Position numbers and translations under genes: made by a program. From positions 1 through 6,823 of the forward strand of contig JAKCAB010000684.1 in NCBI GenBank assembly GCA_021839785.1: DNA of 6,823 nt. Reading direction: 5' to 3'. The notes under the pieces were generated by a model that was not told where the DNA came from, searched no databases, and saw nothing but the letters and a program-made list of their open reading frames with translations. Source of the DNA: a bacterium (GTDB lineage Bacteria; Verrucomicrobiota; Verrucomicrobiae; Limisphaerales; J093). Positions 1,534 to 3,928 of this stretch are shown here, piece after piece (positions within the stretch are counted from its first letter, which is position 1; every line of letters starts with the position of its first letter).

Positions 1534-3928
1534 AAAACAACGCGGCCTGGGCCGCAGAAGAGCCACCCTTCGTCTTGTCGCCCAGCAGCGCGCGGAATTC
1601 GGTCTCATTCAACACGCGGATTCCGAGTTCGCGGGCCTTGTCGAGTTTCGTGCCGGCGCTTTCACCGGCCAGCACGTAGTCGGTGTGCTTGCTCACGGAA
1701 CCGGTGACGTTGCCGCCGGCTTCGCGGATGAAGGCAGCGGCTTCCTCGCGGGAAAGGGACGGCAGCGTGCCGGTAAGGACGAAGGTTTTGTTGGCGAAAG
1801 GGTGGCCGGCCACGGCCGCAGCTTTCGTCGAACCGCGGGGCGAAATGCCGAGCTTCTTCAAGCGTGCCAGCACGTCGCGGCCGGTCGGACTCGCAAACCA
1901 GTCCAGCACGGCCTTTGCGGCGACGGGGCCGACGACGACCACTGCGTCGCGCGGCGCGGCGTCTTTCTTCTTGGACGGTTGCGCGAAGCCCGCGGCGATA
2001 AGCGTCAGCCCGACCGCGTCGGCTTCGTCTGTGCGTTTCTCCTCCCGCAAGCGATGCAGTTCCAGCACGCCCCGCAGAAGCCTCGACTGAGCGATGTCTT
2101 CGATGGTTTCGTGGAACTGGGCCAGATCGTAAGCGGTCCGTTCACCAACTTCGGAAATCGCCGACGCATGAATCCAGCGGTGCAGCGGCAGTGACTTGGC
2201 GCGTTCCAAGGCCTCCTTTACCTTGGCGGCGTTCTTCGCGCCGAACACGCGCGGTTCGCCGTCGGTGCCGAGATTGAGCGTGGCCAGCTTTTCTTCCGGC
2301 AGTGTGAAGAGGTCGAGCGGTTCGTCCACCAGCCCACGCTCGACGAGTTTTTCGGCGACGATGCCGCCGAGGGATTCGATGTCGAGCGCCTTCCGGTGGG
2401 CAAAGTATTCCAGGCGGCGGGTCTTCTGCGCCGGGCAGCCGGCCACGTTCTGGCAGCGCCAGGCGACTTCTTCGGTTGAGCTTTCGTTGGATGGCTGCCC
2501 CCTCACCCTGGCCCTCTCTCCCTCCGAGGGGGCGAGGGAGACGGAAGTGCGAGCCTTGATCCTGTCTTTCGCAATCGGCCCACCGCACGCGGGGCACTTG
2601 CCGCCAATGTGGGCAACGAAATCGAATTCCGGCGCATCCTTGGGCCGCTTGGATTTCACGACTTCGACGACTTCGGGAATCACCATGCCGGCTTTGCGGA
2701 TCACCACGGTGTCACCAATGCGGATGTCTTTGCGGCGGATTTCGTCTTCATTGTGGAGCGTGGCGCGCGCGATGGTCGAGCCTTGGACGAAGACCGGTTC
2801 GAGTTCGGCCACGGGCGTGAGTACACCGGTGCGGCCCACTTGGATGGCGATGTCGCGCAGCACCGTCTCTGCCGGCGTGATCCACGGAATGGGTTTGTGG
2901 ACGATGGCGTAGCCGGGGGCGCGGGTCTTGGACGGGATGCGCTGCGCGTCCGCAAGGCGGTTCACCTTGAGCACAACACCGTCGATGTCGTAAGGCAATT
3001 CGCGGCGCAGATCGCGCGTCTCGTCATAGCGGCAAACGACTTCCTCGCGGTAGCGATCCAGCACTTCCTCGATGTCACGACAGAGCCACCAGCGTCGCTG
3101 CGTCGGCAGGCCGAACTTCCCCAGCGCCTCCAGCATCTCCGCGTGCGCTTCGAACGCGATGCCCTCGCACGCGCCGACCGCGTAAAACACCGCGCTGATG
3201 GGCCGCTGGGCCACGAGACGTGGGGCGAGTTGCTTAAGCGTGCCGGCAGTGGCGTTGCGGGCGTTGGGGAAAGGCTTATCGCCGGCGGCCTCGAGCTTCG
3301 CGTTGAGCGCGTCGAAATCGTTCGTGGCGATGTAGGCCTCGCCGCGCACTTCGAGCAACGCGGGCGGATTCTTCAAGCTCAGCTCCAAGGGAATTGCGCG
3401 GACGGTGCGGAGGTTGGCGGTGATGTCGTCGCCGAGCTGGCCGTCGCCGCGCGTCACGCCAAGGACGAGTTTGCCGCGCCGGTAATGGACACCAATGGAA
3501 ACGCCATCGACCTTCGGCTCCAAGACGTATTCGGCCCGGTCCCGGCCAAGGTGTTTGCGGATGGTTTTGTCGAACTCAAGCAGACGCGGCAGCGTGTTCT
3601 CGTCCTGTAGCCGATTGCGTTGTTCGCGATCCGGCTCTTCGCTGCTGTCGGGGTGTTCCGCCGCCTCGACCTTCTCCAACGAAAGCATCGGCACGATATG
3701 CTTCACCCGCTTGAAGCCCGCCGTGGGCGCGCCGCCGACGCGCTGGGTGGGGGACTCCGGCGTGACGAGTTCGGGGAACTGCTTTTCCAACTCCTGCAGT
3801 TCGCGGTAGAGCCGGTCGTACTCGAAGTCGCTGATTGTCGGTCTGGCCAGCACGTAGTAAGCGCGGTCATGCTGCCGGATTTCCTCGGCGAGCGCGGCGT
3901 GGCGGGTTTGGGCGTCGGGAAGATTCAT
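1532..3928 (-). CDS. ligA: NAD-dependent DNA ligase LigA, with insertions
   Basis: LigA seals nicks in DNA during replication and repair using NAD+. The start is the ATG at 3928 (MNLPDAQ); the same frame stays open a further 126 codons upstream, but that stretch overlaps the preceding gene and has no ligase similarity. In order: NMN-binding domain Ia (HDRAYYVLARPTISDFEYD, residues 20-38); nucleotidyltransferase domain with adenylated Lys139 in EPKVDG, VTRGDG (158-163), VRGE (194-197), YDIDGVVLK (313-321) and Lys345; OB fold (QVGRTGVLTPVAELEPVF, 363-380, and LHNEDE); zinc finger C445, C448, C492, C498; helix-hairpin-helix region (about 505-690); BRCT domain (about 706-785, FVLTGTLPSLSREEA). 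All core residues are present, so it should be active. It has 798 residues against about 670 usual, owing to extra segments at about 87-115, 456-485 and 618-660. It overlaps the upstream gene by ATGA and lies 12 nt before the Rsm22-like gene. Confidence 0.97.
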   Translation of the reverse strand: MNLPDAQTRHAALAEEIRQHDRAYYVLARPTISDFEYDRLYRELQELEKQFPELVTPESPTQRVGGAPTAGFKRVKHIVPMLSLEKVEAAEHPDSSEEPDREQRNRLQDENTLPRLLEFDKTIRKHLGRDRAEYVLEPKVDGVSIGVHYRRGKLVLGVTRGDGQLGDDITANLRTVRAIPLELSLKNPPALLEVRGEAYIATNDFDALNAKLEAAGDKPFPNARNATAGTLKQLAPRLVAQRPISAVFYAVGACEGIAFEAHAEMLEALGKFGLPTQRRWWLCRDIEEVLDRYREEVVCRYDETRDLRRELPYDIDGVVLKVNRLADAQRIPSKTRAPGYAIVHKPIPWITPAETVLRDIAIQVGRTGVLTPVAELEPVFVQGSTIARATLHNEDEIRRKDIRIGDTVVIRKAGMVIPEVVEVVKSKRPKDAPEFDFVAHIGGKCPACGGPIAKDRIKARTSVSLAPSEGERARVRGQPSNESSTEEVAWRCQNVAGCPAQKTRRLEYFAHRKALDIESLGGIVAEKLVERGLVDEPLDLFTLPEEKLATLNLGTDGEPRVFGAKNAAKVKEALERAKSLPLHRWIHASAISEVGERTAYDLAQFHETIEDIAQSRLLRGVLELHRLREEKRTDEADAVGLTLIAAGFAQPSKKKDAAPRDAVVVVGPVAAKAVLDWFASPTGRDVLARLKKLGISPRGSTKAAAVAGHPFANKTFVLTGTLPSLSREEAAAFIREAGGNVTGSVSKHTDYVLAGESAGTKLDKARELGIRVLNETEFRALLGDKTKGGSSAAQAALF
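2498..2546. repeat. Palindromic GC-rich repeat inserted in frame within ligA
   Basis: The plus strand carries a pyrimidine-rich arm (CCCCCTCACCCTGGCCCTC) followed by a hairpin with a perfect 8-bp stem, TCTCCCTC (2517-2524) and GAGGGAGA (2534-2541), and a 9-nt loop. In the ligA frame it encodes APSEGERARVRG; the opposite strand reads PLTLALSPSEGARE. Both resemble peptides I recall from repeat-derived reading frames in many GC-rich bacterial genomes, including Verrucomicrobiota (recollection, not a search). It sits where the LigA zinc-finger loop is about 30 residues longer than usual, so the inserted segment is probably about 90 nt (roughly 2474-2563), a multiple of three. Only one copy is visible here, so repeat status needs the rest of the genome. 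A hexamer, CTTTCG, occurs on both sides (2481 and 2566), but its 85-nt spacing does not fit a frame-preserving insertion. Confidence 0.62.
3925..3928 (-). other. ATGA stop-start overlap joining the synthase gene to ligA
   Basis: The TGA of the squalene/phytoene synthase gene (3927-3925) overlaps the ligA ATG (3928-3926) as ATGA. No strong Shine-Dalgarno is visible just upstream (CCAGGCCGACCG before the ATG), so ligA translation probably depends partly on coupling to the upstream gene. Confidence 0.8.

Follow-up and report, generated by a model that had tools for sequence, protein, structure and literature searches.

Introduction

Short repeats that are carried inside protein-coding genes and read through in frame have been described from several groups of bacteria. 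Rickettsia palindromic elements (RPEs), as presented in the accessible text of the relevant reports, are 105–150 bp long, encode a conserved peptide, and are found in intergenic DNA as well as in frame within conserved protein genes, and a guanylate kinase that bears an RPE stays active (PMC10969869, PMC2229807). The same text describes prokaryotic MITEs fused to ORFs, which are short, non-autonomous inverted-repeat elements that are read through as peptides (PMC10969869, PMC2229807). Intragenic GTAG/CGTC REPs, many of them in replication and repair genes, were published in 2013, and the accessible part of that paper names the verrucomicrobium O. terrae as the richest in intragenic GTAG repeats, with one in a DNA ligase, and reports that the sites differ within a gene category, Xanthomonas recB excepted (PMC3733652).

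Here we analyze a palindromic repeat, termed family A, in the NAD-dependent DNA ligase gene (ligA) of a verrucomicrobial DNA stretch of 6,823 nucleotides (the window). Judging from the names of LigA relatives, one of which is a subdivision 3 genome, the host looks like a member of this subdivision. Like the RPEs, as far as the accessible text describes them, family A has in-frame copies in conserved genes as well as copies elsewhere, and insertion is tolerated. However, RPEs reach the length given above and possess a long terminal stem, whereas the LigA copy has about 45 bp (at other places the genome also has family A copies of about 133 bp), and RPEs encode one conserved peptide, whereas here unrelated repeats occupy one site and different frames are used. 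In comparison with the GTAG/CGTC REPs, family A carries no GTAG or CGTC tag by eye, but the inserts of two other families, B and D, begin with GTAG in several genomes; the part of the REP report that is accessible describes varied sites, whereas in LigA one site recurs. As in MITEs, terminal inverted repeats are present in the LigA copy, and their arms are also found in the longer family A copies. The inserts thus work like RPEs and intragenic REPs, a likeness in the mode of working that need not imply membership of family A in either group. A first-pass annotation of the window had proposed a parallel to the Rickettsia elements in another phylum. The same way of working stands, but judging from the accessible text of the REP report this is not the first case outside Rickettsia (PMC3733652). 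What is new is the reuse of one site by unrelated repeats, for which no report was found among open-licence papers, while intragenic REPs themselves had already been published.

Results

The zinc finger of the ligase contains a family A repeat

The features of the locus are as follows.
1532..3928, minus strand: ligA, NAD-dependent DNA ligase, 798 aa (NCBIfam NF005932)
2435..2596, minus strand: LigA zinc finger, C445 to C498 (motif C445-x2-C448-x43-C492-x5-C498)
2456..2584, minus strand: 43-residue loop from Cys448 to Cys492 (20 residues in most relatives)
2471..2557, minus strand: residues 458-486, predicted disordered tip of the finger hairpin (AlphaFold pLDDT below 50)
2497..2541, plus strand: family A palindromic repeat, 45 bp (copies compared by eye; ends approximate)
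2517..2541, strand not given: 8-bp perfect inverted repeat, arms 2517-2524 and 2534-2541
2497..2533, strand not given: second 8-bp perfect inverted repeat, arms 2497-2504 and 2526-2533

Re-reading of the LigA frame and the motif gave exactly the cysteine spacing that the first-pass annotation had claimed, and its comparison with 14 residues at the corresponding position of E. coli LigA is borne out by structure 2owo, which aligns on both sides of the loop (the 14 residues were counted by hand). The perfect 8-bp stem that it had noticed is present (2517-2524 and 2534-2541), and a second stem was found besides. Its estimate of some 30 extra residues had to be corrected, as the excess over the 20-residue short loop of the ligase's own clade is 23 residues; of the corresponding 69 bp, 45 bp are the family A repeat, which is read on the minus strand and encodes approximately S464 to G477. 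The window's LigA protein had a single match when searched against the source genome. The neighboring genes in the window, all named by eye, are carboxypeptidase-like (1-431), methyltransferase-like (536-1519), phytoene/squalene synthase-like (3925-4938, overlapping with its end the start of ligA), FAH-like (ending at 5954), and oxidoreductase-like (5985-6821).

Compared with dinucleotide shuffles, the hairpin of the LigA copy has no extra stability (z −0.64 as DNA, −1.34 as RNA), and a thermodynamically special hairpin was thus not found in this copy; the case for an element therefore rests on repetition, not on the fold. The AlphaFold model of the window's LigA (50 sequences; mean pLDDT 74.6, pTM 0.52), whose second PDB match is E. 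coli LigA on nicked DNA (2owo), contains strands at residues 451-456 and 488-492 that bracket the low-confidence residues 458-486. In the poorer model of a short-loop relative (65.9, pTM 0.42), the strands at 451-458 and 464-469 are joined by a 5-residue tip. The two models together indicate that the insert replaces the tight turn of the finger hairpin, and the insert is predicted to sit disordered at the hairpin tip.

Family A is repeated in the source genome and lies in frame in further genes

The 19-base family A core CCCTCACCCTGGCCCTCTC, allowing up to two mismatches, had 30 matches on both strands of the source genome, and the reversed control had none; these counts are per strand, with palindrome matches that overlap on the two strands kept separate. 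Merging by hand within 200 bp resulted in 24 family A loci, of which 20 were read with a stricter pattern, while the four that escaped this pattern were read separately and had no recognizable gene nearby, as judged by eye. By eye, copies start with CCCTCACCC and are either short, with about 45–51 bp, or extended to about 133 bp. A second family A pattern matched the source genome 38 times, three congeneric genomes 5, 2, and 0 times, and two other members of the source's family (G007 and G009) not at all.

Besides LigA, family A copies were found in frame in MutS, AddB, ClpB, and a DUF3516 helicase of the source genome, with Pfam run for those frames that looked gene-like by eye. Recognizable genes thus hold in-frame copies at 5 of the 24 loci including LigA, perhaps at 6. 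The ClpB copy lies inside an AAA_2 match, in a frame that aligned with ClpB of known structure, the DUF3516 copy falls within the DUF3516 match, and the frame of the AddB copy matches AddB and PD-(D/E)XK; the ClpB and AddB matches are partial proteins in the stretches read. The possible sixth copy is in a Cas4-like frame (locus L209, 1269-1736, plus strand), with NCBIfam matches below the curated cut-off and no Pfam match, and since the similarity stops, by eye, soon past the copy, this frame may be broken. Two more loci (L004 and L203) are in long frames without a Pfam match. The earlier suggestion that a repeat family has colonized an essential gene is thus in line with 23 further loci, some of them in frame in genes, and the genome search for other copies that it had proposed did not come back empty. 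The number of open frames in the elements does not exceed that in shuffles; an adaptation of the elements to coding is therefore not indicated and was rejected on this ground.

The repeat families found in the LigA loops of relatives also lie in other genes of these relatives. Seven copies of family E were read in genome G247, with one each in frame in valyl-tRNA synthetase (ValS), PurM, and an ABC ATPase that has a C-terminal ABC_tran_CTD match and is ABC-F-like by eye. Among six family C copies read in G015, one is in PurL, and the six family D copies read in G023, G135, and G183 include three in protein kinases and one in a frame with an MG2 match. The kinase copies (loci L228, L229, and L231) are in frame, two of them between DFG and the APE-type motif, that is in the activation segment.

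Relatives have a short loop or fill it with unrelated DNA

Among the 120 nearest LigA proteins, loops range from 20 to 70 residues and contain several unrelated peptides; the query region included the insert, and insert-bearing proteins may therefore be favored in this set. The loop has exactly 20 residues in 19 of the 120, and by eye also in P0034. For a survey of the host's order, a LigA match at E 1e-150 was present in 115 of 320 genomes and 114 were taken, with G035 left out because its sequence ends before the finger; 112 loops were read by regular expression, and those of G033 and G316, which are outside that count, are short according to separate readings. A short loop (≤23 residues, mostly 20) is found in 74 of the 112, including three congeneric species, and 32 have repeat-like inserts (A 7, D 7, C 6, B 5, E 3, and one each of G, H, A+D, and A+G). 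The remaining fillings are an unassigned insert (one), an extra zinc ribbon (three), and a large domain of about 280 residues (two). The comparison with relatives lacking the insert, proposed along with the original observation, thus returned relatives with either a short loop or other DNA in the loop. Labels were assigned by regular expressions and then looked over by eye, whereby G238 was changed by hand from A+C to C and G259 from D+H to H, and proteins P0069 and P0063 were treated likewise.

The peptides of the insert kinds are as follows.
Insert A: LSPSEGERARVRG and kin
Insert B: GTGVSPV..HGQDARAT, GQASRLS..GDRRDACPT
Insert C: SREEREGSEG..PSRPSRDT
Insert D: GRAELPLGQDAQQRVPT
Insert E: GGTSSTSP..ELVPP
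Insert F: TPCAPL (one protein only)
Insert G: RAGGFQPPL
Insert H: AGAPPALVG

By eye, the insert DNA shows no relationship between kinds, amounting to at least seven unrelated ones, and many inserts fold into long hairpins (computed without a control). Further copies in the insert-bearing genomes are evident for A, B, C, and E from pattern counts, and for D from exact core matches elsewhere in G023 (three), G135 (one), and G009 (one). The zinc-ribbon-like loops (L084, L085, and L159) have 53–59 residues with additional CxxC pairs and no repeat. The stretches of about 280 residues are located at L097 (G093), 1899-2732, minus strand, and L103 (G157), 2073-2909, plus strand; one has a weak Kinase-PolyVal Pfam match below the cut-off, and neither has a PHROGs match.

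These occupancies bear on the idea that the insert has been domesticated and is held by selection because it tunes the binding of the ligase to DNA or to a partner. Persistence in an essential enzyme and the recurrence of A-type peptides in several lineages are what can be cited for such a role, but unrelated inserts, an extra zinc ribbon, and a domain of about 280 residues occupy the same place, two-thirds of the relatives surveyed (the short-loop majority above) manage without any insert, and the insert is predicted to be disordered. We thus consider domestication very unlikely.

Since unrelated inserts need separate arrivals under any tree, at least five arrivals are required for the tested families, and seven if G and H are counted. 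On a FastTree tree of 112 LigA proteins with the loop removed, the changes needed number 7 for the 7 rows of A, 5 for the 5 of B, 5 for the 6 of C, 6 for the 7 of D, and 3 for the 3 of E, and short loops versus the rest need 25, of which 16 are forced by starred branches; such counts do not separate gain from loss. All 13 loop labels together need 35 changes versus a shuffled mean of 37.2, and the labels are thus spread nearly as if they had been randomly dealt. A group of 14 rows, out of 225, that surrounds the window's LigA (support 83; window protein present twice) comprises short, A, A+C, B, C, and H loops. Genus labels are not mirrored in the LigA tree, and a transfer of ligA is therefore possible. 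The grouping of the window species' LigA outside its own genus is a hint of transfer or of misplaced bins.

The insert tends to be of a kind that is abundant in the host genome

Families were counted in 70 genomes, 33 with a filled and 37 with a short loop, using patterns that were derived from the LigA inserts, which favors genomes with near variants. A, B, C, and E were tested, and D was omitted because its pattern was near control level in many genomes. The five B-loop genomes have 246, 132, 53, 24, and 7 B matches (median of the others 4), the six C-loop genomes 22, 13, 7, 6, 5, and 1 C matches (median of the others 0), and the three E-loop genomes, with 30, 29, and 19 E matches, are the top three of all 70. 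After subtraction of two matches per genome for the LigA copy, one-sided Mann–Whitney tests against all other genomes gave p values of 0.003 (B), 0.0008 (C), 0.0004 (E), and 0.06 (A), and against the other filled genomes 0.010, 0.003, 0.001, and 0.15, respectively, so that for family A alone the association is not significant in either comparison. For the 23 A, B, C, and E genomes among the 33 filled ones, with LigA copies taken off, the mean own-family percentile is 0.72 versus 0.53 when permuted, a value reached by 0 of 20,000 permutations (kinship of genomes uncorrected), and without family A it is 0.81, reached by 4 of 20,000. In total, A, B, C, and E matches have a median of 37 in filled-loop genomes versus 19 (p 0.005).

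There are counterexamples: G111 has 366 A matches but a D loop, G172 has 246 A matches but a short loop, G015 has 167 B matches but a C loop, and G115 has 24 C matches but an A+D loop. The A-loop genome G054 has no A match because parts of its insert are in another order. Taken together, the LigA insert tends to be of a kind that is abundant in the host genome.

An ordinary, fast-evolving disordered linker, in which the resemblance to repeats arises by low-complexity chance, would be compatible with a hairpin energy not above that of shuffles, with the predicted disorder of the loop, and with its GC-rich composition. However, for A, B, C, and E, exact or near-exact copies of 18–22 bases exist in the same genome while reversed or control patterns are at or near zero, and the family in the loop is associated with the family in the genome, which leaves this explanation with a negligible probability.

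Filled and short loops differ in the residues beside the insert

In most filled loops the insert is directly preceded by [DE]K[IVL]K, whereas short loops mostly have [ED]K[VMI][SA]; in 100 comparable rows, the position adjoining the insert is occupied by K in 22 of the 33 filled loops and by S or A in 64 of the 67 short ones, and the neighboring positions further out differ as well. The discrimination is strongest in the five residues beside the insert and weaker at −32, −15, +47, +58, and +59, where it may reflect kinship. If repeats had simply inserted into a short loop, such a flank difference would not be expected. There are two options: convergent change of the flank after loss of the turn, or inheritance or recombination of an old long-linker allele, with repeat turnover inside it. 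A flanking IKT as part of the element itself can be discarded, as by eye the genomic copies of E, C, and D that were inspected lack it, and a wide recombination tract was likewise rejected because the strongest discriminating residues adjoin the insert, although this is not decisive. DNA alignments of filled and short loops were too diverged for reading a target duplication or exact ends.

In its full form, the second option holds that a single ancient allele with a long linker (AKDKIKT...EEVAWRC) was maintained or spread within the order through descent and recombination of the ligA segment while repeats came and went inside it, so that most filled loops would not be fresh insertions into the 20-residue loop. 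The flank [DE]K[IVL]K is indeed common to inserts A, C, D, E, and G, and the A-type loops of P0002, P0004, and P0007 are identical to that of the window at 33–35 of 44–45 positions, which extends beyond the element, while P0006, which is closer to the window's LigA outside the loop (86%), has a C loop. The LigA of the window's species is also closer to that found in other genera than to that of its congeners. On the other hand, most B inserts follow K[VL] and are without the [DE]K[IVL]K flank, the top discriminating residues are those five that adjoin the insert, short loops look alike in distant lineages, and several separate arrivals would still be required for the unrelated inserts. We regard this scenario as somewhat unlikely.

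MutS has a comparable variable site

MutS has a comparable site between RFVPND and LITGPNMAGKS, just before the Walker A motif (loci L200 and L257-L286). Of 30 genomes searched, 26 had a match and 24 were read (G245 and G115 were left out). The form is short in G052, G074, G004, and G057, whereas by eye the peptides are A-like in G000, G059, G181, G205, G247, G263, and the partly read G111, B-like in G207, G015, and G202, and D-like in G135. Unassigned peptides are present in G001-G003, G007, G009, G023, G193, G172, and G206. It could be that the LigA finger tip and the stretch before Walker A of MutS are true hotspots that mobile repeats of many families hit more often than tolerance alone explains, but we consider this unlikely. 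If they were, insertion near the replication or repair machinery would perhaps be favored, or a slightly altered ligase or MutS would perhaps help the repeats to spread.

Discussion

Our analyses suggest that the insert is very probably a non-autonomous palindromic REP- or MITE-like repeat that landed in ligA and was kept at a tolerant tip, and that this tip has been refilled by unrelated repeats. The assignment to a REP- or MITE-like repeat in ligA had already been made on the window alone, and it is now supported by other genomic copies and by relatives that lack the long loop or have another filling. In the mechanism that we propose, palindromic REP/MITE-like repeats would insert widely across the genome, and a copy would have arrived in ligA by transposition. 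This copy would have been kept because it is in frame, free of stops, and placed at the tip of a beta-hairpin that tolerates extra residues; we infer that the loop is disordered and tolerant and that the insert is nearly neutral. Within this verrucomicrobial order, the same LigA tip has repeatedly received unrelated repeats, most of them belonging to kinds that abound in the respective host. As one spot is filled by several unrelated repeats in relatives, it seems that a single loop of an essential protein recurrently takes up insertions and that these persist.

With respect to the mobilizing activity, all 30 genomes searched had Y1_Tnp matches (191 in total), as did 5 of 14 control genomes. 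The surroundings of Y1 transposases were read in 20 regions, which cover 22 of the 191 matches in 10 genomes, and were searched with six patterns: 19 of the 20 regions had no A–E or G element within about 1 kb, and one holds C. RAYT adjacency of the repeats was thus not found in 19 of the 20 regions read, and no related autonomous element was found.

The LigA loop provides a natural insertion scan of an essential enzyme, as dozens of species can be compared that either carry or lack unrelated inserts at the same position. Whether the addition of raw peptide to proteins by selfish repeats is neutral or has an effect thereby becomes testable, and the Rickettsia case is extended to a repeat-rich lineage of Verrucomicrobia in which several repeat families are at work.
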